A DNA stretch of 64,000 nt from Pseudidiomarina tainanensis (lineage in GTDB: Bacteria; Pseudomonadota; Gammaproteobacteria; Enterobacterales; Alteromonadaceae). The stretch's first letter is position 1. Each line of letters opens with the position of its first letter. The stretch spans positions 558,001 through 622,000 of the forward strand of contig NZ_PIQJ01000001.1 of the NCBI RefSeq assembly GCF_004214835.1, in the 5' to 3' direction. The translations under genes and the position numbers were made by a program. Positions 190-56,248 of the stretch are shown here, in pieces. Under the pieces are notes generated by a model that saw nothing but the letters and a program-made list of their open reading frames with translations, made no database searches and was not told the origin of the DNA.

Positions 190-1381
190 AGCCTACGTGT
201 TTATTGAAGGCTTGGAGGAAGAGCCAGTCATCTGCGCGAAGTTTCGTTATGACGTGACGCGTAAAGTAGGCCAATTGCGTTACGGAAAGTCATATTTAGC
301 ACGCAAGGATGCATTCCCGCTTGATCCCATTCACTTGCCACTAAGCCAAGAGATTTTTACCACCAAACTCAACAAAGGTATCTTCGGTGTATTAAGTGAC
401 GCCGGCGCCGATGCTTGGGGGCGCAAACTCATCTTGCAATTACGCCGAACCAAGCCACAAAACGAGCTCGAGTTCTTGATAGCCGGTGCCACGATGGGTG
501 TCGGTGCAATAAGCTTTAGTTTGTCGCGTAGCAAAGCAAAGGCGAAGCAATCTCGTAATACGTTGGCAGATTTAGACTTATTGCTACGTGGTAAAAAAGC
601 GATTCTGAATGCTGAAGACGTCAGTATTGAAGTAAAAAAAGCATTTCAATTCGGCGATTCAATGGGCGGAGCCCGGCCTAAAACACTATTGGTAGATAAC
701 AATCAGACGTATTTATTGAAGTTTAATAGAGCTGATGATCTTTATAATGTGGCTCGAGTTGAGTACGCCACCATGCAGATGCTAGCAGAGCTCGATGGTG
801 TTCGCACTGCTGACGTGCGGTTGCTTGAAGGTGAAGAAGATGTGCTGATGGTAAAGCGTTTCGATCGACGACTGGATGGCGAGAGCGAATCAGTATCGCA
901 TCACTTCATTAGTGCAAACTCGCTATTGATGGACGACCATGTCAACGAGGCAGCATTACGCAGTTGGTATTCCTATGGCGCGCTCGCAGAATTATTGCGT
1001 AAGCACAGTGCGTCAGCAGACGACGCCCCGGAGTTATTCAAGCGCATGGTATTTAACGTGCTGATTGGTAATACCGACGACCATGCACGAAATCATGCCA
1101 TGTTGTGGCATTTACAAGAGCGTCACTGGCGCTTGGCGCCGGCGTATGACGTTCTCCCCATTAGCAATAGCAAAGAGCATGGTTTTGGAATCGGTGATGA
1201 CGGGCGTGCCGGCACGGTGGAAAACGTATTATCGCAGTCGCGTCGTTTTGGCCTACAGCCATATAAAGCTCGGGCGGTTGTGAAAGAGGTACAAGAGTTA
1301 GTCGCAGAATGGCAGGTTTACTTCAAACACCACGGCGTGGGTGCGGGCGACATCGAAATCCTGCGCAGTATTATTAAGTAG
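179..1381 (+). CDS. hipA: HipA-family serine/threonine kinase toxin
   Basis: The product of 400 residues has the HipA architecture: an N-terminal subdomain (ADAWGRKL near residue 80), a glycine-rich ATP loop followed by a lysine (GGARPK near 162), MVKRFDRR near 223, and the catalytic/metal loop NVLIGNTDDHARNHAML near 295 followed by APAYDVLP. HipA kinases phosphorylate translation targets such as aminoacyl-tRNA synthetases and induce dormancy. I chose the ATG at 179 rather than an in-frame ATG at 134 because it overlaps the antitoxin stop and gives the family's usual start. The stop codon at 1379-1381 directly abuts a family A palindrome. All kinase motifs look intact, so an active enzyme is expected; its target cannot be read from sequence. 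Confidence 0.88.
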   Translation: MISEAYVFIEGLEEEPVICAKFRYDVTRKVGQLRYGKSYLARKDAFPLDPIHLPLSQEIFTTKLNKGIFGVLSDAGADAWGRKLILQLRRTKPQNELEFLIAGATMGVGAISFSLSRSKAKAKQSRNTLADLDLLLRGKKAILNAEDVSIEVKKAFQFGDSMGGARPKTLLVDNNQTYLLKFNRADDLYNVARVEYATMQMLAELDGVRTADVRLLEGEEDVLMVKRFDRRLDGESESVSHHFISANSLLMDDHVNEAALRSWYSYGALAELLRKHSASADDAPELFKRMVFNVLIGNTDDHARNHAMLWHLQERHWRLAPAYDVLPISNSKEHGFGIGDDGRAGTVENVLSQSRRFGLQPYKARAVVKEVQELVAEWQVYFKHHGVGAGDIEILRSIIK

Positions 1382-1412
1382 GAGAGGTGCAGTCCAAGGA
1401 CTGCACCCCTCC
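1381..1412. repeat. Family A palindrome, intergenic copy 1
   Basis: Two 15-bp arms (GGAGAGGTGCAGTCC and GGACTGCACCCCTCC, one mismatch) are separated by AA. The copy starts on the last base of the hipA stop codon and is followed by TTTT, so it could also act as a bidirectional terminator between hipA and the convergent msrA. Confidence 0.9.
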
Positions 1413-2028: not shown

Positions 2029-2060
2029 GGAGGGGTGCAGTCCTTGGACTGCACCCCTCC
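2029..2060. repeat. Family A palindrome, intergenic copy 2
   Basis: Perfect inverted repeat: arm GGAGGGGTGCAGTCC, spacer TT, then the exact reverse complement. One more A/T pair extends it to 2028-2061. It lies between the pagL-like stop and the msrA start, both read on the minus strand. Confidence 0.95.
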
Positions 2061-2749: not shown

Positions 2750-2787
2750 AAAGGAGGGGTGCAGTCCAAGGACTGCACCCCTCCTTT
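2750..2787. repeat. Family A palindrome, intergenic copy 3
   Basis: A perfect 38-bp inverted repeat with spacer AA, the longest perfect copy in the window. The GGAGGGGTGCAGTCC arm is extended outward by AAA/TTT. It lies between the divergent pagL-like gene and ndk, immediately upstream of the probable ndk promoter. Confidence 0.95.
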
Positions 2788-13042: not shown

Positions 13043-13060
13043 GACGCCGAGGTACTAAAC

Positions 13061-13438: not shown

Positions 13439-13999
13439 TTAAGGTTCTTGATAATCACTGAAATTATCGTCAAGCCAAGCGGGCGTAATGTATTTCCAAT
13501 CATCCGGATAACGCCCCTCGCTCAAATAGCGATTTAAGGTTGAGTACGGCCAATCGCACGCATTCTTTACGTAACCATGTTTTACTGGGTTGAAGCAGCA
13601 GTAGAGGATATACATCATATATTCGCGTTCATCGCGAATCTCATGTTCCCAATAGCTATGTTGCCATAATTTTCCATACCCATGTGCTTGTCTAGCTTCT
13701 GTATTCTTAGCATTTCTTCGGGACTTTGAGGAAAATTCCGGAAGGGCCTTGGTGGTTAACGCTTTTATTTTTCCCCAGCGTAATGGAACGAAATCATCTT
13801 TGATAATTAATACACAATGAATGTGATCAGGCATTACTGTCCAGGCTTCAATTTCAAATGGATGTGTTTTCATTGTTTCGCGCACGGCATTGCGTAGCGC
13901 TGCGATGACGTCGGGGCGAGTTAGCACTGGCTGTCGGCGATAGGTACATACAGTGAAAAAGTAGTAACCGCGCTCGAAAAATCTGCGAACGTTTCTCAT
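13439..13999 (-). CDS. REP-associated tyrosine transposase (RAYT, Y1_Tnp superfamily)
   Basis: The 186-residue protein has the HUH single-strand transposase fold: an N-terminal YYFFTVCTYRR strand, the HUH motif PDHIHCVL (two metal-binding His near residue 62), and a C-terminal helix with YILYCCFNPVKHGYV, where the nucleophilic Tyr is expected, followed by DWPYST. RAYTs recognise and cleave REP hairpins that carry a 5' GTAG tetranucleotide. Here the gene lies between two REP arrays whose units all begin with GTAG. All catalytic residues appear intact. It is a domesticated single-copy type with no terminal repeats of an IS200 element. No promoter is obvious in the 84 bp between the gene and the right array. 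Confidence 0.92.
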   Translation of the reverse strand: MRNVRRFFERGYYFFTVCTYRRQPVLTRPDVIAALRNAVRETMKTHPFEIEAWTVMPDHIHCVLIIKDDFVPLRWGKIKALTTKALPEFSSKSRRNAKNTEARQAHGYGKLWQHSYWEHEIRDEREYMMYILYCCFNPVKHGYVKNACDWPYSTLNRYLSEGRYPDDWKYITPAWLDDNFSDYQEP

Positions 14000-14083
14000 A
14001 GGTTGAGTGTTGCGCAGAAAGGCGGGTTGGGCGAGTTTATATTGCTGTGGGATATTGGCTTACGTTGCTGCGCGCCAGATAGC

Positions 14084-15183: not shown

Positions 15184-15333
15184 GGTGATAATACGTCTGT
15201 CATACTTGTGTAAAAAAGTGGCGGCATTATACCAGAATCCTCGAATTTGATCTGTTCTCTTGTGTATAGTAAGGCTAGAATGACCAAAAGACGCAATTGT
15301 CACATAATTATAACGAAAGCGTAGTATTAACCC

Positions 15334-16239: not shown

Positions 16240-16248
16240 GGGATAAGT

Positions 16249-18357
16249 ATGCGTAAAACCTCATTGGCATTGGCCATCACACTCGGCGCCGCGCTCTCGG
16301 GAACATTCCACGATGTGAGCGCACAGCAATCACGCCAAGCAACGCAGCAGCAACGCCAAACGGCAGATGAGCCAGTTGAATACGCCGCCAGCTTTAAAAA
16401 CACTGATATTACCGAATTTATTCAAGTGGTCGGACGTAATTTGGGCCGCACCATCATTATTGACCCGGATGTGCGCGGTCGTATTGACGTGCGCAGCTAC
16501 GATGTGATGAACGAAAGCCAATACTGGCAGTTCTTCTTGAACGTGTTGGATGTGTACGGCTTCGCCACCATTGAAATGGAGTCGGGCGTGATTAAAGTCA
16601 TGCGCGATAAAGACGCCCGCAACGGCGCGATTCCAGTGGTGGATGACAATTCATTAGGCGGCGATACGCTGATTACGCGCGTGGTGCCGGTTGCTAACGT
16701 CAGCGTGCGTGAACTCGCGCCACTGTTACGATTGCTGAACGACCAAAGTGGTGGCGGCAACGTGGTGAGCTACGATCCGTCGAACGTGATCATGATTACC
16801 GGTCGCAGCGAGACTGTACAACGCTTGGTTGAGATTATCGAGCGCGTTGACCGTGCCGGCGACCAAGACGTAACCGTGGTGAAGCTTGAATTTGCATCGG
16901 CTTCCGAAGTGGTGCGCATTGCCTTGAGCTTGTTTGAAAAAGCCAACGATGGCACACCACCATTATTGATTCCGAAAATCGTTGCCGACGAGCGTACCAA
17001 CAGTGTAGTGATTAGCGGCGAGCCGCGTGCCCGCGAGCGCGTGATGAAGCTGATTAACCAGCTTGACCAAGATTTGAAAACCGAAGGCAACACCCGCGTT
17101 TACTACTTGAAATACGCGAAAGCTGAAGAGCTTGTTGAAGTGCTGCAGGGCGTCAGCCAAAGTTTACAGGCTGAGAAAGAGTCAGCGTCGGCTGCCGCTG
17201 GCACCACTGCCGCGGCGCGTCGTGTGAGCTCGTCCAATGGCCAAATCTCAATTAGTGCGCATGATGCATCCAACTCCTTGGTGATTACCGCACAGCCAGA
17301 TTTGTTAGCCAGCTTAGAAGGCGTGATTCGTCAGCTCGATATTCGTCGTGCACAGGTACATGTTGAAGCGATTATTGTTGAAATCATGGAAGGCGATGGC
17401 GTCGATTTCGGTCTGCAATGGATTAGCGAAGACGGCGGTATGGTGCAATACAACAATGGCCGTCAGGCACCGATTGGTCAGGTTGCGGCGGGTGCATATT
17501 TAGCCCGTGAGCAACCGGGTACGGAAACCACCACGATTGTTGATGGCAACGTGGTAAAAACCCGCGAACCGGATCGCCCGGGTGACGTGTCTCTATTGGC
17601 GCAGGTTTTGCAGAATGTGAACGGCATGATGGTTGGTGTGGTGCGTAACGATTGGGGCGCAATTTTGCAAGCCGTGACCACCAATACCAACTCGAATATT
17701 TTGGCGACGCCGTCAATTATGACGGTGGATAACGAAGAAGCATCGTTCTTGGTCGGTCAATCGGTGCCGACGATTACCGGTGCGACGACGGGTTCGAACA
17801 ACGATAATCCGTTCCAAACCGTTGAGCGTGAAGATGTGGGTATTAAATTAAAAGTTACCCCGCAAATTAACGAAGGTAGCGGCGTGCAGTTGGTGATTGA
17901 GCAGGAAGTGTCGAGTATTAGCGGCGCTACCGCAGTAGATATCACCATCAACAAACGTGAATTGAAAACTGTGGTGATGGCCGACGACGGCGAGACCATT
18001 GTATTAGGCGGCTTGATTGACGAAGACGTGCAAGAGTCAGAATCAAAGGTGCCGATTTTAGGCGACATTCCATTCTTGGGACATCTGTTTAAGAGCACCT
18101 CAACATCGCGTCAAAAGCGCAACTTGATGGTGTTTTTACGCCCAACCATTGTACGTGATAGCGGAGCGGCAACGCAGATCTCGTCACGGAAATACAATTA
18201 TATTCGGGCTGAACAAATTAAAGCCGACGAAGATGGCATTTCATTGATGCCATTAACCGACCAACCGGTATTGCCGGAGTGGGATGGCCCGTTAACGTTG
18301 CCGCCGTCGTTTGAAAAGTACATGGAAGAAGAGAAAAAGGGCAGTGGCAATGACTGA
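16249..18357 (+). CDS. gspD: Type II secretion secretin GspD
   Basis: This 702-residue outer-membrane channel has a signal peptide (cleavage near VSA-QQ), N0 ([20 protein letters not shown]), N1-N3 domains with repeated secretin folds ([49 protein letters not shown]) and a C-terminal secretin barrel ([16 protein letters not shown]-like segment, [15 protein letters not shown]). A Ser/Ala-rich loop in N3 near residue 312 is normal. The 3' end overlaps gspE by 8 bp. Confidence 0.97.
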
Positions 18358-19873
18358 TATCGCGAATGTGGCCGCGCAAGTGGCACCGCGACGGTTGCCA
18401 TTTGCGTTTGCAAAACGCCATGGCGTGGTGGTGGCCTACGCTGATGCCGCAGATGATGGCACTGCGAATGATGCGGTGGTGCATGCGCGTCACGGCGTCA
18501 CGCCACAAGCGCTGCTCGAAGTGCGCCGTGTTTTGGGCGCCCCGTTTGTATTGCAAGAACACAGCGCCGATGAGTTTGAAGCGATTTTGACGCAGGCGTA
18601 CCAACGCGATTCGTCGGAAGCGAAGCAGCTAATGGAAGATATTGGCAACGAAAGCAACCTATTTTCGTTGGCCGATGAGCTGCCGCAAACCGAAGACTTG
18701 CTGGAAAGCGAAGATGACGCACCAATCATCAAACTCATCAACGCCATGCTCTCGGAAGCCATCAAAGAAGGCGCTTCGGATATTCACATTGAAACCTTTG
18801 AGAAAGACCTGTTGGTGCGGTTTCGTATCGACGGCGTATTGCGCGAGGTGATTCGCCCGAACCGTAAATTGAGCTCGTTGCTGGTGTCGCGGATCAAGGT
18901 CATGGCGCAGTTGGATATCGCCGAGAAGCGGGTGCCGCAAGATGGTCGTATTAGCTTGCTCATTGCTGGGCGCGCAGTGGATGTGCGGGTATCCACCATG
19001 CCATCGAATCACGGTGAGCGGGTGGTGTTGCGTTTGCTGGATAAGAATAACGCGCGTTTGAATCTCGAACAGCTTGGCATGACCGAAGCGAATCGCCGCA
19101 TTTTCTCGCAACTGATTAAAAAGCCTCACGGCATTATTTTGGTAACCGGCCCGACCGGCTCGGGTAAATCGACCACCTTGTATGCCGGTTTGATGGAGAT
19201 CAACTCACGCGACCGTAATATTTTGACGGTGGAAGATCCAATTGAGTATTCCATTGAAGGCATTGGCCAAATGCAGGTGAATCCGAAGGTGAACATGACC
19301 TTTGCCCGCGGATTACGTGCGATTTTGCGGCAAGACCCTGACGTGGTGATGGTCGGTGAGATACGTGATGTTGAAACCGCACAAATTGGCGTGCAGGCGT
19401 CCTTGACGGGGCACTTAGTATTGTCGACGTTGCACACCAACACCGCCGCTGGCGCGATTACGCGTTTAGAAGACATGGGCGTGGAACCATTTTTGCTGTC
19501 ATCGTCGTTGTTGGCGGTGCTAGCGCAGCGCTTGGTGCGTACCTTGTGTGACGATTGCAAAGAGCCGTATCAAGCGTCTGCCGATGAGCTGGAATATGTT
19601 GCTGATGGTGCCGTTGATGGTGGAGCGCAGCTGTATCGTGCGGTCGGTTGCGACAAGTGTAACCACACCGGCTATCGCGGCCGAACCGGTATTCATGAAT
19701 TATTAGTGGTGGATGAACGCGTGCGTGAGCTGATCCACAACGGTCATGGCGAGCAAGCGATTGAGAAATACGTGCGCGCTTCGGCACCGTCAATTCGTGA
19801 CGATGGCTTGGCGAAAGTGATTGCCGGCGTCACCACTTTAGAAGAAGTGTTGCGCGTCACGCGCGAGGAGTAA
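18350..19873 (+). CDS. gspE: Type II secretion ATPase GspE
   Basis: This cytoplasmic hexameric ATPase powers pseudopilus assembly. It has 507 residues from the ATG at 18350, which overlaps the gspD stop; a longer in-frame start at 18311 is less likely. Walker [11 protein letters not shown] is near residue 267, the Asp and His boxes follow ([16 protein letters not shown]), and the zinc-binding C4 domain is formed by CDDC near 399 and CDKC near 433. gspF follows after 3 bp. Confidence 0.97.
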
Positions 19874-19876
19874 CCG

Positions 19877-21127
19877 GTGGCAGCCTATGCATTTCAGGCG
19901 TTAAACGCCAGCGGACGCAAAACGAAAGGTGTTATTGAAGCCGACACCGAGCGCCAAGTGCGTGCGCAGTTACGTGAGCAGGGCTTGATTCCGGTTGCTG
20001 TCGAATTGGCAGAGGAGGGGACCAGTCCTCGCTCCGGTACCGGATCCGGAGCTGGGCCTGCACCCCTCCTGAAGCGCCTACAAACGCGCGGTATTGGCGC
20101 GGCCGACTTAGCTTTGATCACCCGCCAACTGGCCACCTTAGTTGCGGCTGCATTGCCAATCGAACAAGCCTTGTTTGCGGTGTCGGAGCAGACCGACAAA
20201 CCACGCCTGCAAAAGTTAATTATGGCGGTTCGCTCAAAAGTTGTTGAAGGGTATTCGTTAGCCGAAGCGATGTCCGAATACCCACATGTATTTGATAAAT
20301 TATTTACCGCGATGGTCGCAGCAGGTGAGCGCTCAGGGCATCTTGATGAAGTATTGAACCGTCTCGCTGACTACACCGAGCAGCGCAACCGCCTCAAAGG
20401 CCAGTTAGTGCAAGCCTTGGTGTATCCGGCGATTTTGACGCTGGTTGCCATTAGCGTGATTATTTTCTTGCTGGTTAGCGTAGTGCCACAAATTGTTGAA
20501 CAATTTAGTGGCCTCGACCAAGAATTACCGCCAACCACGACGTTCTTGTTAGCTGTCAGTGGTTTCTTACAAAATTATGGGCTCTTCCTGCTGGGGATAA
20601 TTCTGGTTGGCTTAGTTGTTGGCGGACAGTTATTACGTAAACCGTCGCGTCGCGATAAATTTGATGCGGTGCTATTAAAAGTGCCGTTGGTTGGGCGCGT
20701 CATCAAAGGGGTAAACACCGCACGCTTTGCACGCACCTTGAGTATTTTGGCCGCCTCAGCAGTACCGCTATTAGATGGCTTGCGGATAACCGGCCGCGTG
20801 TTAAGCAACCGCGCCATGCAAATTGCGGTCGAAGAGGCTTGCGACCGTGTGCGTGAAGGCTCGTCGCTACGCGCTGCCTTAGCACAAACCAAATTATTTC
20901 CGCCGATGATGCTACACATGATTGCCGCCGGCGAAAAATCAGGCGAGTTGGAACAATTGTTAGGGCGCGCCGCCGATAACCAAGACCGTGATTTCGAAAC
21001 CACCATGAACGTCGCGCTAAAAATATTTGAGCCAGCGCTGATCGTTGTCATGGCTGGCGTGGTCTTACTTATCGTGCTCGCCATCATTCAACCCATACTC
21101 GCGCTCAACCAAAGCGTAGGACTGTAG
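19877..21127 (+). CDS. gspF: Type II secretion inner-membrane platform protein GspF, with in-frame family A insert
   Basis: GspF is the polytopic platform protein contacting GspE and GspL. The frame starts with GTG and encodes 416 residues with two GspF domains (about 72-195 and 275-398) and hydrophobic segments near 170, 220 and 375. Between the N-terminal beta segment and the first domain, residues 46-65 (EGTSPRSGTGSGAGPAPL) are encoded by a family A palindromic element; the sequence on either side aligns as normal GspF. The TAG stop is supplied by a REP GTAG. Confidence 0.95.
   Translation: MAAYAFQALNASGRKTKGVIEADTERQVRAQLREQGLIPVAVELAEEGTSPRSGTGSGAGPAPLLKRLQTRGIGAADLALITRQLATLVAAALPIEQALFAVSEQTDKPRLQKLIMAVRSKVVEGYSLAEAMSEYPHVFDKLFTAMVAAGERSGHLDEVLNRLADYTEQRNRLKGQLVQALVYPAILTLVAISVIIFLLVSVVPQIVEQFSGLDQELPPTTTFLLAVSGFLQNYGLFLLGIILVGLVVGGQLLRKPSRRDKFDAVLLKVPLVGRVIKGVNTARFARTLSILAASAVPLLDGLRITGRVLSNRAMQIAVEEACDRVREGSSLRAALAQTKLFPPMMLHMIAAGEKSGELEQLLGRAADNQDRDFETTMNVALKIFEPALIVVMAGVVLLIVLAIIQPILALNQSVGL
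20014..20069. repeat. Family A element inside gspF (long form)
   Basis: Outer arms GGAGGGG and CCCCTCC enclose CCAGTCC and GCCTGCA remnants and a central block containing GCTCCGG and CCGGAGC, a nested palindrome. Length is compatible with the frame, and it is translated as a Gly/Ser/Pro-rich spacer. Confidence 0.85.
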
Positions 21128-21164
21128 CCCGGCGTTTCACGCCGGGACGTGCGAAGCACGGTTA
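21124..21164 (+). repeat. Family B REP at the gspF stop codon, followed by two small hairpins
   Basis: GTAG at 21124-21127 provides the gspF stop, followed by the GCCCGGCG hairpin and a variant second hairpin (ACGTGC/GCACG). Two further direct copies of TGGCAT...ATGCCA (about 21171-21187 and 21197-21213) occupy the rest of the gap before gspG. Confidence 0.9.
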
Positions 21165-21243
21165 ATATTTGTGGCATCCCGAATGCCAAATATTTATGGC
21201 ATCCCGTATGCCAACCATAATTAGTGTTAAACAGAGGAACACC

Positions 21244-21660
21244 ATGAAAAAACAATCCGCATTCAGCCTTATGGAAGTAATGGTCGTCATCGCCATACTC
21301 GGCCTGTTGGCTTCATTAATTCTGCCCAACGTGCTCGGTTCAGCTGACCAAGCCAACCGCCAAAAAGCACGCACCGATATCATTTCGTTGGAAAATGCTG
21401 TGGCGCAATACCGCCTTGATAACGGCACCTTCCCGACCACCGAACAAGGTCTTGAAGCCCTTACCGAAGAGCCAAACATTGACCCGCGCCCACGCAACTA
21501 CCGCCGCGGCGGTTACATCCAGCGCTTACCATCCGACCCGTGGGGCAACGAATACCTGTTATTAAGTCCAGGTGAATTCGGTGATTTCGACATCTTCTCG
21601 GCTGGTCCTGACGGTCAAACCGGTACCGACGACGATATCGGCAACTGGAACATCGAGTAG
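21244..21660 (+). CDS. gspG: Type II secretion major pseudopilin GspG
   Basis: The 138-residue major pseudopilin has a short basic leader, the conserved hydrophobic helix (FSLMEVMVVIAILGLLASLI, Glu at +5), and a C-terminal calcium-binding segment (GPDGQTGTDDDIGNW). The residue before the processed Phe is Ala (KKQSA-F), not the near-invariant Gly. The ATG at 21244 is preceded by AGAGGA; an in-frame upstream start at 21169 lies in hairpin sequence. The TAG stop is supplied by a REP. Confidence 0.95.
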   Translation: MKKQSAFSLMEVMVVIAILGLLASLILPNVLGSADQANRQKARTDIISLENAVAQYRLDNGTFPTTEQGLEALTEEPNIDPRPRNYRRGGYIQRLPSDPWGNEYLLLSPGEFGDFDIFSAGPDGQTGTDDDIGNWNIE

Positions 21661-21693
21661 CCCGGCGTTTTACGCCGGGTGGCCGAAGGCCGT
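21657..21693 (+). repeat. Family B REP at the gspG stop codon
   Basis: GTAG at 21657-21660 forms the stop of gspG, then the GCCCGGCG hairpin and a TGGCC/GGCC hairpin follow. It ends 3 bp before the first ATG of gspH, so it sits where the gspH ribosome-binding site should be. Confidence 0.9.
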
Positions 21694-21695
21694 TC

Positions 21696-22322
21696 ATGAT
21701 GATACCCACAAATCATGCCGCGAACCGCAGAAGCCGAATCAACCGCGTTAAAGGCTTCACCATCGTCGAAGTCATGGTCATCATGGCGGTTGTTGGTATG
21801 CTGGCGCTCACCGTCAGCTTTGTGGTGCCCGATCGCAACGACGATGAAACGGCCGAAAGCGCCCGCGTGTTATACGAACGCATCCGCTATGCTCGCGAAT
21901 ATGCATTAGTGCGCCACGCGGTATTAGGCCTGCGCATCGACAATGGCCATACCTATCGATTTTTAGAATTCACCGATGGTCGCTGGCAAAATATCTCCCA
22001 TCGTGGCCTGCGCCGAACCGAGCTGGATACAAACATTGAGATTTCCGTAGAAGCTGGCGATCTTGAACTCCTGCAGCAAGATGACACTGATCTCAACGAA
22101 GTATTCGCGGTGGAGGATGACGACCTCGGTACGCGTTCTGATGACGACGAACCACCGAGTGAACCCACACCCCAATTATTTATTTTTGGTAGCGGCGATC
22201 TCCCACCCTTTGAATTGTTTGTGCGTAACGTTGGATTACTGGGTGAGCCGGTCAGTTGGCAAATTGCTAGTACCGATGGCGTTGATATCGAACTGAAACG
22301 AGATGTGGGGCGTGAAGATTAA
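21696..22322 (+). CDS. gspH: Type II secretion minor pseudopilin GspH
   Basis: The 208-residue product has a long basic leader, a prepilin peptidase site KG-FTIVE (near residue 20) and the hydrophobic N-terminal helix. A beta-rich globular domain follows, with an acidic insertion (EVFAVEDDDLGTRSDDDEPP). GspH is a minor pseudopilin near the tip of the pseudopilus. Either of two adjacent ATGs could start it. Its stop overlaps the gspI start (TAATG). Confidence 0.9.
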   Translation: MMIPTNHAANRRSRINRVKGFTIVEVMVIMAVVGMLALTVSFVVPDRNDDETAESARVLYERIRYAREYALVRHAVLGLRIDNGHTYRFLEFTDGRWQNISHRGLRRTELDTNIEISVEAGDLELLQQDDTDLNEVFAVEDDDLGTRSDDDEPPSEPTPQLFIFGSGDLPPFELFVRNVGLLGEPVSWQIASTDGVDIELKRDVGRED

Positions 22323-22729
22323 TGGCTAAGCGTCAGCACGGTTTCACCTTAGTTGAAGTGATGTTTGCGCTGGGCATTTTCGCTCTCGCGGCTTTGGCCG
22401 CTGTGGCCGCCACCAGCCAACACTTAAACGACTTAAATTACATGCAAGATAAGTCGATGGCTCAATATGCCGGCGCTAATGCAATGGCGCGAGTGAGTTT
22501 GGATTATCCACCCGAAAACGGCGCAACTGGAGTGGAAATGGTGGGTTCTCGAGAATGGTTTTGGCGCTCAGAAGTATTGAAAACACAAACTGCAGACGTG
22601 TTTTATGTGACCGTGCGGGTATTCGAAGAGCAACCTCAGTCAGCGGATAATAATGACGGCGCGTTGGTGGTATTAAGCCGCTACCTTGGACCGGACTCTG
22701 GTTCTGGTGCTAATGAGGCGCAGCCATGA
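22322..22729 (+). CDS. gspI: Type II secretion minor pseudopilin GspI
   Basis: The 135-residue product has the prepilin site HG-FTLVEVMFALGIFALAA at its N-terminus. GspI nucleates the GspI-J-K tip complex. Length is typical. It overlaps both neighbours by 1-4 bp, indicating translational coupling. Confidence 0.93.
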   Translation: MAKRQHGFTLVEVMFALGIFALAALAAVAATSQHLNDLNYMQDKSMAQYAGANAMARVSLDYPPENGATGVEMVGSREWFWRSEVLKTQTADVFYVTVRVFEEQPQSADNNDGALVVLSRYLGPDSGSGANEAQP

Positions 22730-23346
22730 TGCAACGCCGGCGTGGATTTACCTTAGTGGAAGTGCTAGTCACCGTTGTCATTATGGCGGTGATCGGCTTG
22801 GCTTCGGCCGCAGTGATTAACGCCATTATGCGTACTAGTGAGCAGAGCGAAGCGGCTATCGCACGGCTCGAAAAGCTCCAGTACAGTATGCTGATTTTAG
22901 AACAAGACATTCGCCAAATCGTCGCTAGAGATAATCCTACGGGGCGTTATATATTCATCGATGAAGGCCGCTTAGGCTTTGTCCGTTCCGGCTGGTTTAA
23001 TCCGCTGGGATTGTTCCCGCGCAGTGAATTGCAGCCGGTTGCTTATGTGATCCGAGAAGGTAACTTGGTCCGCGAGCATTTTAATTTTGTGGATGTGAGC
23101 GAATCATCGGAACCGGTATCGCGCATTGTGCTGGAAGGCGTTACCGCTTTCACCGCCAAACCGCTAAGGAGGGGTGCAGTCCAAGGACAGACCCCCACCT
23201 CGCAGCGGAATAATTCGAACGACATCAACGACATCGAAGGCTTACCACCGGCGCTGGAAATCACGCTAGAAACGAAAGCATGGGGCACCATCAAGCGGGT
23301 GTTTTTAATTAATGACGGAGGTTTAGATGACCAGCCGTCGCCATAA
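22726..23346 (+). CDS. gspJ: Type II secretion minor pseudopilin GspJ, with in-frame family A insert
   Basis: The 206-residue product has prepilin site RG-FTLVEVLVTVVIMAVIG and a beta-rich domain typical of GspJ (SMLILEQDIRQIVAR, GWFNPLG, PVAYVIREGNLVRE). Residues 148-159 (RGAVQGQTPTS) are encoded by a family A element; flanking strands (VTAFTAKPL and PPALEITLETK) are recognisable GspJ. It overlaps gspI by 4 bp and gspK by 20 bp. Confidence 0.93.
   Translation: MMQRRRGFTLVEVLVTVVIMAVIGLASAAVINAIMRTSEQSEAAIARLEKLQYSMLILEQDIRQIVARDNPTGRYIFIDEGRLGFVRSGWFNPLGLFPRSELQPVAYVIREGNLVREHFNFVDVSESSEPVSRIVLEGVTAFTAKPLRRGAVQGQTPTSQRNNSNDINDIEGLPPALEITLETKAWGTIKRVFLINDGGLDDQPSP
23168..23200. repeat. Family A element inside gspJ (short form)
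   Basis: GGAGGGGTGCAGTCC, then AA, then a decayed right arm (GGACAGACCCCCACC). The left arm is identical to intergenic copies, and the frame is kept. Confidence 0.88.
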
Positions 23347-24577
23347 CGTGAGAACACGTCTAACAGGCGCAAGCGCACTGACTGTAAAACGCCAACGCGG
23401 CGTTGCTTTGCTGATGGTATTGCTCGTGGTGGCGCTGGTATCCGTTATGGCGGTTACCTTAAGTGGGCGCTTACAAACTACCGTGTTGCGCACTGGCAAT
23501 TTTCAACAAGCCGAACAAGCGTATTGGTATTGGCTCAGTGCTGAAGAGATTGTACGCGAATTGCTACAACGCGAAATTAGCGAGAGTGACGGCGTCGTTC
23601 ACCAGCAACAGATGTGGTATCAGCAAAGCAAAAGCGACAGTATTTACCCGGTGGATGGCGGCGCCATTAAAGGTGAAATTCAAGATTTACATAGCTGTTT
23701 TAATTTGAATTCGTTACGCGTGGAAGATGGGAGCGGCTCGCGCTCCGGAGCAGGGGCCGGATCTGGGACTGCACCCCCACCTCCGCAAGCGCTGAACACG
23801 GGCAACACAACTGGGAATACCTCCGGTACCAACACGAATCCAAATGCGAACACCAGCGGCAACACCGGTGGCTCCATTGCACCCGACGTATTGCGCGAGC
23901 GCCGCAAAGCACAATTGCGCATGTTATTGATGGCGACAGACGAAAATATGGAACCGTACGCAGCCGATGTCATTGTCGATTCGTTAGCGGATTGGCTCGA
24001 TAGCGACGACGACATTGATGGCAGTTATGGCGCCGAGTCGGTCGATTATCAAAGCTTGCAGTTCCCATATCGCGCGGCGAACAGTTGGCTGGTTCACGTG
24101 AGCGAATTACGCTTAGTGCGGGGTGTGACAGCGCGTATTTATAACCAAATTAAACCGTACGTTTGTGTGATACCGCGAGATAACACATTAAAACTGAACA
24201 TTAATACCGTAGATAAAAATCAACCAGAGCTATTGCAAGCCGTCACTGTGGGGGCCATGTCGAGGGGCGATGCCGCAAGTTACCTGGCGTCGCGTCGGCA
24301 AGATGGCTATGAAAGTATGGATGATGCGCGTAATAATGGCGCTTTAAATGATGCGGCGACACGCGGGACGCGGCCGAATTTTGGTGGCGGTGTGACGCCA
24401 TCGGGCGTTACCGCGCAAACCATCGGCGGCGCACTTGACGATTTAGATGTGAAGAGTAAGTATTTTCAATTAAACGCAAAAATTGGTTATGGTGACCTCA
24501 TGATGGCGGCCGAAAGCCAGTTTTTAATCACCAGCGAGACCGCAGAAGTATTGTATCGCGGCGCAGGAGAACCTTAG
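23327..24577 (+). CDS. gspK: Type II secretion minor pseudopilin GspK, with in-frame family A insert
   Basis: The 416-residue product is the large tip pseudopilin, with leader ending QRG-VALLMVLLVVAL (no Glu at +5, normal for GspK) and helix-hairpin-helix-like and calcium-binding segments. After DLHSCFNLNSL, residues 134-153 (DGSGSRSGAGAGSGTAPPP) come from a family A element. A further Asn/Thr/Gly-rich tract (NTGNTTGNTSGTNTN...) then precedes the resumed GspK sequence at APDVLRERRKAQLRMLL. The region is therefore a long disordered loop unlike most homologues. Confidence 0.93.
   Translation: MTSRRHNVRTRLTGASALTVKRQRGVALLMVLLVVALVSVMAVTLSGRLQTTVLRTGNFQQAEQAYWYWLSAEEIVRELLQREISESDGVVHQQQMWYQQSKSDSIYPVDGGAIKGEIQDLHSCFNLNSLRVEDGSGSRSGAGAGSGTAPPPPQALNTGNTTGNTSGTNTNPNANTSGNTGGSIAPDVLRERRKAQLRMLLMATDENMEPYAADVIVDSLADWLDSDDDIDGSYGAESVDYQSLQFPYRAANSWLVHVSELRLVRGVTARIYNQIKPYVCVIPRDNTLKLNINTVDKNQPELLQAVTVGAMSRGDAASYLASRRQDGYESMDDARNNGALNDAATRGTRPNFGGGVTPSGVTAQTIGGALDDLDVKSKYFQLNAKIGYGDLMMAAESQFLITSETAEVLYRGAGEP
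23728..23784. repeat. Family A element inside gspK (long form)
   Basis: It contains the nested GCGCTCCGGAGC palindrome and a right arm GGGACTGCACCCCCACC. The left arm is diverged (GATGGGAGCGGC). It has the same overall order as the gspF copy. Confidence 0.8.
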
Positions 24578-24580
24578 ATT

Positions 24581-25807
24581 ATGGAACAACTATTTATCCG
24601 CTTGGGCTCGGCAGAACGCGAGCCACTGCACTGGCTGATTTGGAGCCCAGCGCAAAGCGAATTAATTGCAAGCGGAACGCTGAATGATCTGTCCGAGTTG
24701 AACCAACTGACTGATCATGCGCGCAGTCGCGAGGTGATTTGTTATGCGCCGGGCACCGACGTGCTGCTGACTCAAGTGGAGCTGCCAAGTAGCGCGATTC
24801 GCATGTTGCCGCAAGTGGTGCCGAATGCGCTGGAAGATGAGTTGGCGCAGGACATTAGCGAGTTGCACTTTGCCTGGCCTCCGGCGAAAAAAGGGGGTGC
24901 AGTCCTTGGACTGCACGTTGCTGTTGTCGCCCGCGACGCCATGCAAAATTGGCTGAATGCGCTTGATACTGCTGATATTCAGTGCGATGAAATCTACCCT
25001 GATATTTTCATGGTGCCGGCACCTATTGCACAACCGCAAAACGCAGATCAACAAGAGGGTGCAGACCCCGCTCCGGAGCAAGGACTGCACGCCACCTCAC
25101 TCACGCTGGGCGATACGGTTATTGTGCGTATCGGCCAATACACTGGTTTCACAACAGATACGGCACTGGCACCGGTCGTGACAGAAGGTATGCTGCTGCA
25201 ACCGGTCGAGCAAATGGATATTGAGGTGCCACTGAGCGTGGTTGCGACGACCTATAATGCGCGTAAAGCGGCGCCACCGATGATTAATTTACGTCAACAA
25301 GATTTCCGCTCACAAAGTAAGAAGCGCAAAAGCGTGAAAGCAAGCACTTACAAACCAGCCGCGATTGCCGCAGGTGTGTTGTTGGCGATTGCTTATACCA
25401 CGCAGGTGATTAACTACGTGCAACTGGGTCAGCAAAGTGAGCAACTTGAACAGGCCATCGAGCAAACCTACCGCGATGCGTTCCCAGACGAAAAGCGTAT
25501 TGTGAATGTTCGGTCGCAGTTGAATCGTCATTTGGAAACCGTCGGGATGCAGGGCACGAAATCATCGCCGCTTGAGTTATTAGCGCATCTTGAAGGTGCG
25601 TTTAAAGCCAATCGCGATGTCAGAGTTGAGCTGATTCGTTACGACGATAAAACCTTACGCATGCAAGTAACAGCCAACAGTTTTGCGAGCTTAGAGAATT
25701 TCCGTAAAGTCGCGAATCAAGGCGGACAAGTCGTTGTTGAGCAAGGCCCTGTGAATAACCAAAGCGGTGCTGTTAGCGGCGCATTAACTGTGAAGAAGGA
25801 CGCATGA
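24581..25807 (+). CDS. gspL: Type II secretion inner-membrane protein GspL, with two in-frame family A inserts
   Basis: The 408-residue product has a cytoplasmic actin-like domain that binds GspE (about 1-240), a transmembrane helix near AAIAAGVLLAIAYTTQVI (about 265) and a periplasmic ferredoxin-like domain. Two family A elements are translated: residues 105-112 (GGAVLGLH) in the middle of the actin-like domain between FAWPPAKK and VAVVARDAM, and residues 159-173 (EGADPAPEQGLHA). The protein continues normally after both. It overlaps gspM by 4 bp. Confidence 0.93.
   Translation: MEQLFIRLGSAEREPLHWLIWSPAQSELIASGTLNDLSELNQLTDHARSREVICYAPGTDVLLTQVELPSSAIRMLPQVVPNALEDELAQDISELHFAWPPAKKGGAVLGLHVAVVARDAMQNWLNALDTADIQCDEIYPDIFMVPAPIAQPQNADQQEGADPAPEQGLHATSLTLGDTVIVRIGQYTGFTTDTALAPVVTEGMLLQPVEQMDIEVPLSVVATTYNARKAAPPMINLRQQDFRSQSKKRKSVKASTYKPAAIAAGVLLAIAYTTQVINYVQLGQQSEQLEQAIEQTYRDAFPDEKRIVNVRSQLNRHLETVGMQGTKSSPLELLAHLEGAFKANRDVRVELIRYDDKTLRMQVTANSFASLENFRKVANQGGQVVVEQGPVNNQSGAVSGALTVKKDA
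24893..24917. repeat. Family A element inside gspL, copy 1 (short form)
   Basis: GTGCAGTCC, TT, GGACTGCAC is a perfect 20-bp palindrome at 24897-24916, preceded by GGGG. It is the shortest intragenic copy and encodes GGAVLGLH. Confidence 0.9.
25055..25099. repeat. Family A element inside gspL, copy 2 (nested form)
   Basis: GAGGGTGCAG and GGACTGCACGCC arms surround CCGCTCCGGAGCAA, with GCTCCGGAGC a perfect nested palindrome. Confidence 0.88.
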
Positions 25808-26334
25808 TGGCTAATTTGTTACAGCAGTTTGTGCAGCGCGTGCCGGGTCTCGAAGCACAGTTAAATCAAATGAATCAGCGCGAGAAGCTGCTGGTAAGTG
25901 TCGCCGTAGTGCTCTTTGTGATTACGCTGGCGTATTTCATTGCGTGGAAACCGTTAGCTGATGGCATCGCCGAGCGCGAAGCAAAAATCGATGCGCAGCA
26001 AGAGTTATTGCAGTGGGTGCGTGAAAACACCGGCCGCTACCTTGCGCAAACAGGAGGGGTGCAGTCCAAGGACAGCACCCCCACCTCCAGCATGTCAGGT
26101 AGCATGAGCGAGCGCGTCACACGCCTCGCCAGCGCCGCCAAAATTGAAGTCACACGCATGCAACCGCAATCGGATAGTTTGGTCGTCGTGATAGACCAAG
26201 TGCCGTTTAACACCTTATTGCAGCTGATTGAAAACCTCGAAACGCGAGCCGGACTCGTCATTGAGCATCTTGATGCAACAGAAGGCGGCGAACCGGGTAT
26301 CGTGCGCGTGCGCCGTTTGCAGGTGGCTGAATGA
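25804..26334 (+). CDS. gspM: Type II secretion protein GspM, with in-frame family A insert
   Basis: The 176-residue bitopic protein has a short cytoplasmic segment, one transmembrane helix (VSVAVVLFVITLAYFIAW, about 31-48), a coiled-coil stretch (ADGIAEREAKIDAQQELLQW) and a periplasmic ferredoxin-like domain. Residues 84-95 (GGVQSKDSTPTS) between them are encoded by a family A element. GspM partners GspL. It overlaps gspL and gspN by 4 bp each. Confidence 0.92.
   Translation: MMANLLQQFVQRVPGLEAQLNQMNQREKLLVSVAVVLFVITLAYFIAWKPLADGIAEREAKIDAQQELLQWVRENTGRYLAQTGGVQSKDSTPTSSMSGSMSERVTRLASAAKIEVTRMQPQSDSLVVVIDQVPFNTLLQLIENLETRAGLVIEHLDATEGGEPGIVRVRRLQVAE
26053..26088. repeat. Family A element inside gspM (short form)
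   Basis: The left arm GGAGGGGTGCAGTCC is identical to intergenic copies. The right arm is GGACAGCACCCCCACCTCC. It is in the same decayed-right-arm state as the gspJ copy but in another reading frame. Confidence 0.9.
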
Positions 26335-27104
26335 TGTCGTGGCGTTGGTTATTGTGGTTAATCCCGTTGTACGTAATCGCGTTGGTGGCGCTGACACCAG
26401 CTTCGGTGGTTAAGTGGGGTGCAGGCCTAGCTCCGGAGCAGGGACTGCACGTCTCCTCCACCGCCGGAACGATTTGGAACGGCAAGGCGAATATTAGCGC
26501 CGAATTGCCAACCGGCGGCACCTTAGTTCTTGAAGATGTGCAGTGGCAACTGAACCCGTGGAAGTTGTTCTTGGCGAAAGCTGAAATCGCACTCGATATT
26601 CCGTCGAAGAATTATCTTTACGGCACTGCCGAAATTAATGCCGGCCTTTCGCAAGCGCAACTCAAAGGTAATCTCAAAGGGGCCATGCAGCCGGCGATCC
26701 AACAACTAAAGCTGCCCGTACCGATCACTATGGCTGGTAACTTCGAACTTGATATCAATGATTATCAAGTATCTGATTTTAATAGCGGAAAGATCTGCGA
26801 TGCGTTAGCTGGTACAATCAACACACGGCAAACAGAAATGCGCATCAATCAACAGTGGCATGAGCTTGGTGATTATTTAGCAACGCTCACATGCAACGCT
26901 GAAAATGGCATAAATGTTAGAATCGACGATAATAACATCGTCGGTTTACGTTTAGACGCACAAGTAAATGGGCGTATCGATGCGCTGCAAGTAAGCTTAA
27001 CCGGCAGTCTAAAACCAACGCTGCAAACACCACAGCCAATTTCCGAGTTGTTAGTTTTCATCGGAAAACCAGACGCTCAAGGCCGCTACAACTTTAAATG
27101 GTAA
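26331..27104 (+). CDS. gspN: Type II secretion protein GspN, with in-frame family A insert
   Basis: The 257-residue product has an N-terminal membrane anchor (WRWLLWLIPLYVIALVALTP) and a periplasmic domain with the GspN repeats (TIWNGKA, LQWQLNPWKL-like, VNGRIDALQVSLTGSL). Residues 28-43 (WGAGLAPEQGLHVSS) right after the anchor come from a family A element of the nested type, closely resembling the peptide in GspL copy 2. GspN is an accessory component of uncertain role. It ends the gsp operon; no terminator is seen before the mscS-like gene. Confidence 0.88.
   Translation: MMSWRWLLWLIPLYVIALVALTPASVVKWGAGLAPEQGLHVSSTAGTIWNGKANISAELPTGGTLVLEDVQWQLNPWKLFLAKAEIALDIPSKNYLYGTAEINAGLSQAQLKGNLKGAMQPAIQQLKLPVPITMAGNFELDINDYQVSDFNSGKICDALAGTINTRQTEMRINQQWHELGDYLATLTCNAENGINVRIDDNNIVGLRLDAQVNGRIDALQVSLTGSLKPTLQTPQPISELLVFIGKPDAQGRYNFKW
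26414..26459. repeat. Family A element inside gspN (nested form)
   Basis: GGGGTGCAGG and GGGACTGCACG arms enclose the perfect GCTCCGGAGC palindrome. Confidence 0.88.
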
Positions 27105-27116
27105 AAAGGAGTATTT

Positions 27117-27935
27117 ATGGATCAAGTTATGACCTGGATTAGCGACAATCAAGAGCTAATTCTCAGCTACACGGTGAAATTCATCGTCGCAATTATCATC
27201 TTAATTGTCGGTAAGATTGTGGCGAATTCGGTTGCCAAATTAATGGGCAAAGGCATGGAAAAGCGCGGCACCGATAAAGCCGTAATTAGTTTCCTTGGCG
27301 CCATTGTTCGCTCGGTTATTTTCATTGCCGCAGTATTGATGGCATTGTCGCAAGTCGGTGTTGAAACCACTTCATTTATCGCCATTTTAGGTGCTGCCGG
27401 CTTGGCAATCGGCCTGTCTTTGCAGGGTTCACTGTCAAATATGGCCTCTGGCGTGTTGATCATCTTGTTCCGTCCGTTCAAAGCCGGCGAATACGTCGAT
27501 GCGGGTGGTGTGTCAGGTACCGTTGAGGAAGTAAACATCTTCCAAACTATCTTGAAAACGCCAGATAACAAGGTCGTATTTGTTCCAAATGCGCAGATTA
27601 CTGGCTCGCCGATCACCAATTACAACCGAGAAGATACGCGCCGCGTCGATCTGCTCATCGGCGTGTCATACGATGCCGACTTGCACAAAACCAAAGAAGT
27701 GCTTGAAAGCGTGCTGAAAGCCGAAAGCCGCTTGCTGAAAGACCCAGCGTGGAATATTCAGGTGCATGCGTTAAACAGCTCATCGGTCGATTTCATTGTT
27801 CGTCCGTGGGTTAAGAGCTCGGATTACTGGGGTGTGTATTGGGATTTGATGCGTGAAATTAAGATCGCATTAGACAAAAACGATATCGGCATTCCATACC
27901 CTCAAATGGATGTGCACTTGCACAAGCAAGACTAA
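27117..27935 (+). CDS. mscS: Small-conductance mechanosensitive channel, MscS family
   Basis: The 272-residue channel opens on osmotic downshock. It shows three transmembrane segments, the pore helix TM3 with glycine/alanine packing (GAAGLAIGLSLQGSLSNMASG), FRPFKAGEYV after it, the beta domain (GTVEEVNIFQTIL, VFVPNAQI) and the C-terminal alpha/beta domain. The length is close to the 286 of E. coli MscS. An AAGGAG ribosome-binding site precedes the ATG. It lies 12 bp after gspN and could be read from the gsp operon. Confidence 0.95.
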   Translation: MDQVMTWISDNQELILSYTVKFIVAIIILIVGKIVANSVAKLMGKGMEKRGTDKAVISFLGAIVRSVIFIAAVLMALSQVGVETTSFIAILGAAGLAIGLSLQGSLSNMASGVLIILFRPFKAGEYVDAGGVSGTVEEVNIFQTILKTPDNKVVFVPNAQITGSPITNYNREDTRRVDLLIGVSYDADLHKTKEVLESVLKAESRLLKDPAWNIQVHALNSSSVDFIVRPWVKSSDYWGVYWDLMREIKIALDKNDIGIPYPQMDVHLHKQD

Positions 27936-27960
27936 GAAAGCACGTAAATTCTGAGCAAAA

Positions 27961-27993
27961 GGAGGGTGCAGTCCTTGGACTGCACCCCACCTC
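27961..27993. repeat. Family A palindrome, intergenic copy 4
   Basis: GGTGCAGTCC, TT, GGACTGCACC is a perfect 22-bp core, with an extra C in the right flank (CCCCACCTC). It follows the mscS-like gene. Confidence 0.92.
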
Positions 27994-28036
27994 TCGCCTA
28001 TGCTGAAGCCAGGACTTCAACAAAAGGAAGAGAGCA

Positions 28037-28660
28037 ATGAAACCTTTCGTAACAAAAATGTCAGTAGCCGCAGCTGTAATTGCCGCATTAACCACTGCGA
28101 CAACCGCACAGGCTCAACAAACACAACAGCAGCCAAGCTTCGACAAACTCGGCGTTAGCTACGTCAACTATGACCTCGACGGTGAAACCTTGAACGGCGC
28201 CGGTCTGCAGTTCAACCGCTCAATCAACCAAGACTGGTTCTTTGACGTCAACTATATCTACGCCACCGACGACTATACCGTTAGCGGCTTCGACGTCGAC
28301 GCGACCTCCAGCACGCTGTACGGCAACCTTGGCTTCAAGTTCTACCAAATGAACAACATGGTGGCCTATGTCAGCGGTGGCTTGGTATACAACGAAATCG
28401 ACATCGACACCTCTGGTGCTGGCGACTTCAGTGAAGACGACACCGGCTGGAACGCGCAAATTGGTATGCGTACCCGCCTAACCGACGCCTTCGAAGTTGA
28501 CGCCAACGTGCGCCACGTCGACATCTACGACGACAGCGACCAAGAGTGGAGCATCAGCGGCCAGTATTACATCAACCGCGATTTCAGCCTCGGCCTTGGC
28601 TATACGCTCGTTGACTCCGACAACAGCTATGTTGCACTGAGTGGTAACTTCCACTTCTAA
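28037..28660 (+). CDS. Small outer-membrane beta-barrel protein
   Basis: The 207-residue product has a signal peptide with cleavage near AQA-QQ (residue 27) and alternating aromatic/polar strands (LGVSYVNYDLDGE, GAGLQFNRSINQDWFFDVNY, GYTLVDSDNSYVALSGNFHF) ending in Phe, the outer-membrane assembly signal. This suggests an eight-stranded OmpA/Ail-like barrel of unknown role. AAGGAAGAGAG precedes the ATG. It sits between two family A copies. I cannot assign a substrate or partner. Confidence 0.8.
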   Translation: MKPFVTKMSVAAAVIAALTTATTAQAQQTQQQPSFDKLGVSYVNYDLDGETLNGAGLQFNRSINQDWFFDVNYIYATDDYTVSGFDVDATSSTLYGNLGFKFYQMNNMVAYVSGGLVYNEIDIDTSGAGDFSEDDTGWNAQIGMRTRLTDAFEVDANVRHVDIYDDSDQEWSISGQYYINRDFSLGLGYTLVDSDNSYVALSGNFHF

Positions 28661-28664
28661 AGGA

Positions 28665-28697
28665 AGAGGGTGCAGTCCTTGGACTGCACCCCACCTC
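28665..28697. repeat. Family A palindrome, intergenic copy 5
   Basis: GGTGCAGTCC, TT, GGACTGCACC core with right flank CCCACCTC, almost identical to copy 4. It lies 4 bp after the preceding stop codon. Confidence 0.92.
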
Positions 28698-28756
28698 TGA
28701 CTTACAAAATTCGCCTTTACACTTATGCAACAACCTGATAGATTTCAAAGTAATCA

Positions 28757-28787
28757 CCCACATAGACGTGGGCTGATTGGCCAATCA
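28757..28787. promoter_or_regulatory. Hairpin plus 14-bp perfect palindrome upstream of yjbE
   Basis: CCCAC...GTGGG (28757-28772) is followed by TGATTGGCCAATCA (28774-28787), 24 bp before the yjbE start. The second has the symmetry of a dimeric repressor or activator site. Its position near the ribosome-binding site suggests control of the yjb operon, but no regulator can be named. Confidence 0.4.
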
Positions 28788-28811
28788 AAGACGTAAGGAA
28801 GAGGATATACT

Positions 28812-29114
28812 ATGAAAACTTTATCAGCATTGTTTGCTGCTGCATTAATGGCGTTAGCGCCAACTGCAATGGCATCTGGTCAAGCTGGTGGCGCTGAAGC
28901 ATCTGGTTCAGGTGCTGCGTTCACTACTGGTGCAATGGTAGCAGCTGGTGTTGCTGGCGTAGCCGTTTTAGTTGTTGCAACTGACGACGACGACGACTTC
29001 GTAGCTCCAAAGCCAGTTGATCCAGTTGATCCGGAAGAGCCAGAAGAGCCAACTAACCCAGGTACTACTACTTCAACTGCACCTGGTACCACTACCTCTA
29101 CTGCAGGTATGTAA
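28812..29114 (+). CDS. yjbE: YjbE/GfcA-like small secreted protein
   Basis: The 100-residue product has a signal peptide ending near AMA-SG, a Gly/Ala stretch with a hydrophobic segment (GAMVAAGVAGVAVLVVAT), an acidic patch (DDDDDF), a Pro/Glu repeat (VDPVDPEEPEEP) and a Thr/Ser-rich tail. Composition and position, directly before the yjbF homologue, match YjbE/GfcA of exopolysaccharide and group 4 capsule operons, whose function is unknown. A terminator follows, so it may be made in excess over the downstream genes. Confidence 0.72.
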   Translation: MKTLSALFAAALMALAPTAMASGQAGGAEASGSGAAFTTGAMVAAGVAGVAVLVVATDDDDDFVAPKPVDPVDPEEPEEPTNPGTTTSTAPGTTTSTAGM

Positions 29115-55921: not shown

Positions 55922-55949
55922 TGCTGTGCTCCTGTTGTGAAAATCAAAG

Positions 55950-56223: not shown

Positions 56224-56248
56224 AATTTGCAGTTCATTAGGAGGTTTT

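Follow-up and report, generated by a model that had tools for sequence, protein, structure and literature searches.

What spreads a short palindrome through the genes of a single secretion operon, and how do the encoded proteins come to tolerate it? The question is raised by a 64,000-nucleotide stretch of Pseudidiomarina tainanensis (contig NZ_PIQJ01000001.1, positions 558,001 to 622,000; hereafter the window), in which copies of a palindromic element lie in frame inside six genes of the type II secretion system (T2SS) operon. We consider it likely that this palindrome is a REP-like (repetitive extragenic palindromic) non-autonomous element of a Y1 (HUH) transposase, here named RAYT-A, which resembles the TIRYTs and group 1 of the REP-associated tyrosine transposases (RAYTs). 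The element would have spread locally and then been orphaned in the clade to which the window belongs.

A palindrome translated inside secretion proteins

A search for the element's core, GGAGGGGTGCAGTCC, allowing up to three mismatches, gives 20 matches in the window where 0.6 would be expected, and none of 100 shuffled sequences reaches 20. In total, the window holds 12 copies (Table 1), seven coding and five intergenic, built of paired half-sites except for the degenerate gspK copy, which is a single half-site. An initial annotation, made from the sequence alone, had placed seven copies in gspF, gspJ, gspK, gspL (twice), gspM and gspN, each keeping the frame within an otherwise normal Gsp protein. 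All seven were found again, and the host proteins match the Pfam families T2SSF, T2SSJ, T2SSK, T2SSL/GspL_C, T2SSM and T2SSN. It had also said that the copies are read in different frames, and all three are indeed used: GGT-GCA-GTC or variants in gspJ, both gspL copies and gspN, GTG-CAG-TCC in gspM, and the third frame in gspF and gspK. Its description of the peptides as Gly/Pro/Ser-rich suits GspF and GspK and is less fitting for the first GspL copy (GGAVLGLH) and for GspN (GAGLAPEQGLHV).

Table 1. Element copies and associated genes (window positions).
Feature	Positions	Strand	Basis
Host genes gspF to gspN, type II secretion operon	19877..27104	+	Pfam
Element copy in gspF, four modules of 12 nt, encodes about EGTSPRSGTGSGAGPAPL	20014..20069		
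Element copy in gspJ, encodes RGAVQGQTPTS	23168..23199		
Degenerate element copy in gspK, encodes GSGSRSGAGAGSGTAPPP, net insertion relative to element-free orthologues	23726..23783		
Element copy 1 in gspL (GGAVLGLH), length as in element-free relatives	24890..24917		
Element copy 2 in gspL (EGADPAPEQGLHAT), three modules	25054..25099		
Element copy in gspM (GGVQSKDSTPTS)	26053..26087		
Element copy in gspN (GAGLAPEQGLHV), three modules	26413..26459		
Element copy between HipA-like gene and PMSR gene	1381..1412		
Element copy between PMSR and PagL genes, perfect arms	2029..2060		
Element copy between PagL gene (to 2623) and NDK gene (from 2855)	2753..2784		
Element copy between mscS and outer membrane protein (OMP) gene, site of the RAYT-A gene in relatives	27960..27991		
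Element copy downstream of OMP gene	28666..28698		
RAYT-B, canonical REP-associated tyrosine transposase, separate system with its own GTAG REPs	13439..13999	-	NF047646, 153.7 bits, over cut-off
Element copies in P. marina, predicted peptides GAVQGQTPTS and GADPAPEQGLHPT			

Whether a copy adds residues depends on the site. Element-free genomes have short linkers at the gspK site and at the second gspL site, and the GspK linker counts 58 residues in the window against about 10 in those genomes; the GspM site has 12 residues without the palindrome and 14-15 with it. At the first GspL site, by contrast, all six compared genomes have eight residues whether or not the palindrome is present, and the DNA appears to have been rewritten at unchanged length. 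The earlier picture of an inserted peptide does not hold for this GspL site. Our check of Gsp homologues did find insert-free orthologues, and the earlier proposal that a DNA element, and not a peptide, is what spreads was borne out. Beside the element, the GspK linker contains a further low-complexity Asn/Thr/Gly stretch (NTGNTTGNTSGTNTN, window positions 23784-23880), which varies between species.

The 2.37-Mb window genome has 34 half-site matches at up to one mismatch. Reading the stretches around them gave about 19 element copies, eight of them coding, although more degenerate copies may be missed: 13 in C1:557780-586692, a tandem pair at C1:634975-635030, four in C1:1406337-1413859 and one on C5, so that 17 of the roughly 19 fall in two clusters. 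The genome search proposed by the initial annotation thus found copies beyond the T2SS, both intergenic and in one more gene, where the tandem pair (L032 12975-13030, outside the window) is in frame in a cNMP-CBS-DUF294 protein (...VSSVMV-TGAVQGRHPEEGADLGLHP-TSSKLFGILTDRD...). This pair sits in an apparent strand-turn of a CBS domain, and the corresponding site of P. marina holds one copy instead of two. The second cluster (L034 6337-13859) is surrounded by photolyase, Usp, OmpW and SelO genes, and its vicinity gave no match to a Y1 transposase. In P. marina, longer element variants with the centre CTCCGACCCAGGGGCGGAG occur at L179 13563-13611 and 15337-15385; they are not among the listed copies of the window genome.

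Two properties would make the element compatible with coding DNA. The first is its length: leaving aside the gspK copy and the tandem pair, the distance from outer half-site to outer half-site is 26, 38 or 50 nt, i.e., 24, 36 or 48 plus 2, in steps of 12 nt. When intervals are defined by seed matches in three woesei-clade genomes, 38 of 46 are multiples of 12 nt. The proportion outside gsp genes is 18 of 21, the three exceptions being one shared 59-nt copy before RAYT-A, so the 12-nt step is not produced by reading-frame selection. The second is that elements of the marina and woesei types contain no stop codon in any of the six frames, whereas those of P. mangrovi, G014 and G005, like the GTAG REP, do.

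The element is predicted to fold into hairpins, with energies between -21 and -40 kcal/mol; among four hairpins compared with shuffled sequences, three lie well below them and that of gspN does not. The palindrome's foot is GGAG or GAGAG, within the palindrome itself in most copies, and not the GTAG tag. A promoter and terminator scan gave 21 terminator-like sites against 11.3 expected, five of them on four element copies: the two flanking the OMP gene, the first gspL copy (on both strands) and part of the second.

Linkage to the RAYT-A gene in relatives

We take G013 to be P. marina, G006 P. gelatinasegens, G025 P. woesei, G004 P. donghaiensis, G016 P. salinarum and G012 P. mangrovi; G020 is a metagenome-assembled genome and G000 is the window genome. 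A Y1_Tnp search gave matches in 19 of 26 genus genomes, and these sort into three kinds: the canonical RAYT-B, 149-residue copies with near-identical scores in G005 and G009 that are presumably IS200-like, and a longer protein, RAYT-A, found in 12 of the 26.

In six genomes (G004, G005, G012, G020, G023 and G025), the RAYT-A gene follows gspN at a distance of 0.9-6.3 kb and is encoded on the opposite strand. Their 36-kb T2SS regions hold 88, 20, 55, 55, 37 and 79 eleven-mers, respectively, that occur in at least four places (the counts for G004 and G025 include some GTAG REPs). In five others (G002, G003, G011, G014 and G024), RAYT-A is separated from the T2SS by about 98-136 kb or lies on a different contig, and the T2SS region has no repeated 11-mers in any of the five; it is instead the RAYT-A regions that carry many AGGGCAGCCC, AGGGGGCAGCC or GGGCTGCCCC palindromes. 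The exact probability of this split (6/0 versus 0/5) is 1/462. Where the T2SS region contains neither transposase (G001, G009, G010 and G017), 0 or 1 repeated 11-mers were counted; in G007, G008, G015, G016 and G022, whose genomes include a RAYT-B-type gene and GTAG-type repeats, the count is 19-57. The linkage count leaves out G021, whose T2SS contig is a 3.8-kb fragment, and G018 and G019, which have no gspM match. One k-mer table was not used for any count, as it labelled repeats of other genomes as this element and missed the window's gspF and gspN copies.

We therefore reject a cause specific to secretion: the T2SS is element-free in all five genomes with RAYT-A elsewhere and nearly so in the four with neither transposase near. 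The initial annotation had left unexplained the concentration in one operon, in linkers of subunits that contact each other; it follows the position of RAYT-A in relatives, and the copies probably gathered in the T2SS operon because RAYT-A adjoins that operon there. Near the relocated RAYT-A genes, up to 16 of 57 intervals fall within reading frames that homologues support; several of these are short and may be due to chance. These results suggest that gene position decides which proteins gain palindromes.

The association is also close at short range. In woesei-clade genomes, the sequence within 40 kb of RAYT-A, about 3% of each genome, accounts for 27 of 36, 17 of 33 and 24 of 42 half-sites. 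At 10 of 11 complete loci, half-sites flank the gene on each side at a distance of no more than 150 bp (G003 has one side with the pattern used), and long inverted arms surround it at three of four loci (L155, L158 and L163), with L161 having one side only.

RAYT-A has a Y1_Tnp (PF01797) domain scoring over the cut-off, and all 11 complete proteins contain HUH and YIE[LM]N motifs; the twelfth, from G021, is cut by the contig end before Y---N. It aligns to the E. coli TnpAREP structure 4er8 (E=4.5e-5) with the Y---N matched. After that motif come 104-119 residues in 10 of the 11 and 233 in P. mangrovi. The protein of P. mangrovi (L160) is 357 residues long, where the other complete proteins have 223-243, and its own element is translated as KGQAL and, before the start used, KCLPLS. 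P. mangrovi was dropped as an insert-free control on account of these peptides. We infer that RAYT-A itself moves the element, via single-stranded DNA.

Beyond the genus, RAYT-A homologues were found in 51 of 147 sampled family genomes. Flanks were analysed at 29 of a subset of 30 loci (L187 to L215, all of other genera; L186, from P. woesei, was left out), and 23 of these have an inverted flank match of at least 12 nt, where shuffles give means of 5.6-9.4 and a largest value of 13. GGGTCAG is contained in 20 of the 23 and GGGGTCAG in 14, while six of the 29 loci show no such repeat. These flanks fit GGGGWSAS, the terminal inverted repeat motif given for TIRYTs (or TIRtrons; PMC3733652, Di Nocera 2013; PMC6006769), a group for which PMC3733652 describes moderately abundant families of such repeats. 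The simplest reading of the window element is therefore a terminal repeat of a TIRYT-like gene, as modified in this genus. PMC6006769 equates RAYT group 1 with TnpAREP subclass 2.1 and reports no REP-like sequences near subclass 2.1 genes. We do not file RAYT-A as a proven member of that subclass.

Within the genus, the gspF, gspJ, gspK, second gspL and gspN sites carry the element in both the marina and woesei clades, with clade-specific letters. For example, the base N of GGKGCAGNCC is, in the genome stretches compared, T in the marina clade (25 of 32 half-sites in G000, 44 of 48 in G013, 16 of 18 in G006 and 9 of 10 in G018) and A in the woesei clade (16 of 16 in G025, 21 of 21 in G004 and 20 of 21 in G020). 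The closest comparisons for the window are P. marina and P. gelatinasegens, whose GspL proteins are 90% and 76% identical to that of the window. Most sites are common to such close pairs, and no clean empty site with a target duplication was obtained.

The Y1_Tnp search found no RAYT-A match in the window genome, P. marina or P. gelatinasegens. In G023, G004, G025 and G020, the RAYT-A gene is found between mscS and the OMP gene; in the window, about 100 bases separate these two genes and contain one palindrome. The absence of RAYT-A from the window clade probably reflects loss. The copies in the window are therefore probably no longer moved by RAYT-A. The earlier reading of a mobile element would hold for the relatives, where a transposase gene is linked to it, and probably does not extend to present movement in the window genome.

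The history that we propose would run as follows. The terminal inverted repeat, for which GGGGTCAG is common in other genera, may have changed in this genus to a GGGG(T)GCAG-like sequence, which would then have grown into a palindrome of 12-nt modules and multiplied near the transposase gene. With RAYT-A just downstream of the T2SS operon, copies would have gathered there, coding DNA included. Coding copies would have been tolerated because they have no stop in any frame and change length in frame-neutral steps, inactivating insertions being removed by selection. The window clade would then have lost RAYT-A, leaving orphan copies that stay conserved at the nucleotide level.

Several observations weigh against this history. 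The five unlinked genomes all belong to one clade of the species tree, so that few independent events underlie the linkage; G023 speaks in its favour, having a RAYT-A that groups with the unlinked type yet adjoins the T2SS, and Gsp proteins that carry elements. RAYT-A scores 72.6, 74.8 and 76 bits against NF047646 (REP_Tyr_transpos) in the three proteins scanned, below the cut-off of 80, and a C-terminal helix-turn-helix (HTH) domain (Pfam Bac_DnaA_C, HTH_23 and HTH_28, at E up to 1) was not found in any of four scanned. In Pseudidiomarina, the flank motif no longer matches GGGGWSAS exactly. No RAYT-A is now found near the second cluster at C1:1406-1414 kb or near clusters in relatives. The first gspL copy is present in the window and P. 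marina and not in P. gelatinasegens, so it may postdate the loss of RAYT-A. Finally, movement of the element was not observed. As a separate matter, the idea that the second cluster is the RAYT-A site of the unlinked genomes was not supported: four of their five RAYT-A regions share genes with window positions 54977-63998 and none with that cluster, and G024 shares with neither.

Conservation of the copies and competing explanations

The orphan copies are better conserved than their surroundings. The comparisons use copies that were ascertained first in the window and linker flanks that evolve fast, and do not separate selection from a lower mutation rate; read with these limits, 9 of 59 fourfold-degenerate sites in the seven coding copies differ between the window genome and P. 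marina, against 357 of 762 elsewhere in the same six genes. Codon-matched resampling expects 32 differences, and none of 5000 resamplings was as low. Against P. gelatinasegens, the counts are 9 of 39 in copies and 366 of 658 elsewhere, and three RAYT-A-bearing pairs, which share genomes and are not independent, have 7 of 58, 4 of 72 and 5 of 60 differences in copies. In these four other pairs, 0-3 of 5000 resamplings were as low. Residues are not better kept in the copies, with 11 of 93 differing between the window and P. marina against 170 of 1779 elsewhere. Protein-level selection does not explain the conservation at fourfold sites.

Whole copies give the same picture. Between the window genome and P. 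marina, eleven intergenic copies differ at 15 of 286 positions and their 60-base flanks at 189 of 1238, and five coding copies differ at 3 of 154 and their flanks at 113 of 573. This comparison omits gspF and gspK, whose length or symmetry differs between the species, the DUF294 copy and copies found only in P. marina, whereas the fourfold comparison includes gspF and gspK. The gspJ, first gspL and gspM copies, each with its own asymmetries, are identical in the two species; the gspN copy differs by one base and the second gspL copy by two.

One explanation is that the copies are now sites used by the host, such as hairpins in gsp mRNA or protein-binding sites, and that the translated palindromes came under selection for a DNA or RNA function, separate from the protein, after the transposase was lost. 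Fourfold-site conservation without RAYT-A and without better-kept residues speaks for it, as do intergenic copies conserved above their flanks, hairpins that in three of four cases lie well below shuffles, and copy-specific mismatches common to both species. Many genomes of the genus, however, run the same operon without palindromes; copy number, length and frame vary between species; and Rfam has no match at gathering score in window positions 13000-29000. Genomes with RAYT-A show the synonymous conservation too, and the copying process may therefore be its cause. We regard host use as less likely than not; the nucleotide conservation could come from it or from past copying.

Somewhat less plausible still is that no transposase is needed now, and that template switching, slippage and gene conversion between nearby palindromes make and homogenise the copies. 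Such processes would account for the clustering, the 12-nt multiples (38 of 46), the replacement at constant length in GspL and the clade-uniform diagnostic base. They leave unexplained why palindromes follow the relocated RAYT-A and why copies lie at both of its ends, and the mismatches that individual copies have in common between the window genome and P. marina argue against recent homogenisation.

RAYT-B, about 6 kb upstream of gspF, could in principle mobilise the element in trans, being a canonical RAYT (153.7 bits; 1.5e-29 against 4er8) in the same region. It has its own GTAG REPs clustered around it, with 24 of 38 exact genome-wide matches of their half-sites in C1:497000-580000, and the element has no GTAG tag; moreover, neither P. 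marina nor P. gelatinasegens, both of which carry the element, gave a Y1_Tnp match. We regard this as improbable. Selected protein linkers with an incidental DNA palindrome are the least credible account: several copies do lie in alignment gaps or variable linkers, but the three frames give unrelated peptides, the same element is also intergenic, and synonymous sites are conserved while residues are kept no better than elsewhere.

Comparison with known systems

Parts of this case have precedents: accumulation near rayt genes, in-frame intragenic REPs and the TIRYTs are already known. Like TIRYTs and TnpAREP subclass 2.1, RAYT-A is a Y1 HUH transposase with Y---N, a C-terminal extension and flanking inverted repeats, and many of its homologues outside the genus have flanking repeats that fit GGGGWSAS. 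Unlike TIRYT repeats, that of Pseudidiomarina is GGGG(T)GCAG-like, palindromic, present in tens of copies, local and found in coding DNA, and the HTH described for subclass 2.1 was not detected in the four RAYT-A proteins scanned. With REPs or REPINs and their RAYTs, the element shares short, often doubled palindromes, a flanked Y1 gene, species-specific sequence and accumulation near rayt, the last of these reported for three marine gammaproteobacteria and Thauera (PMC2817692). It differs in lacking the GTAG tag, in its roughly 19 clustered copies (REPs usually number more than 100 and are genome-wide and extragenic), in its 12-nt modules and in having eight copies in genes.

Rickettsia palindromic elements (RPEs) had been named as the known precedent for protein-embedded repeats. 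They are alike in being in-frame coding palindromes, and differ in that here a transposase gene is linked to the element in relatives; RPE-1 is larger, at about 100-150 bp, and is not known to have a transposase. They are not the only precedent. In-frame intragenic REPs are found in several species, and recB of X. campestris and X. oryzae has different REPs at about the same site (PMC3733652). Those GTAG/CGTC REPs are likewise translated in real proteins, but theirs are varied and often DNA synthesis or repair proteins, whereas here the palindromes lie in genes beside the transposase and, at the same sites, change in sequence from clade to clade. Our literature search, which reached few subscription papers, found no published account of the present case. 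Two features look new: the modules have no stop in any of six frames and are neutral to the reading frame, and synonymous sites are conserved even without the transposase.

Protein-embedded palindromes, the source of which is puzzling in Rickettsia, are here tied to a specific transposase gene. The genus is a natural experiment, with the transposase beside the operon, elsewhere or absent, and the synonymous-site result poses the question of whether it is the element's own copying or a host function that maintains the copies.

The second RAYT system of the genus has left traces of its own. In the window, GTAG REP arrays (GTAGCCCGGCGT, 65-base spacing) lie on both sides of RAYT-B (positions 12654-14341). 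In gspJ and gspL of P. salinarum (L058), GTAG REPs of the RAYT-B kind are apparently translated as RGRTTGY, the same intrusion into coding DNA.

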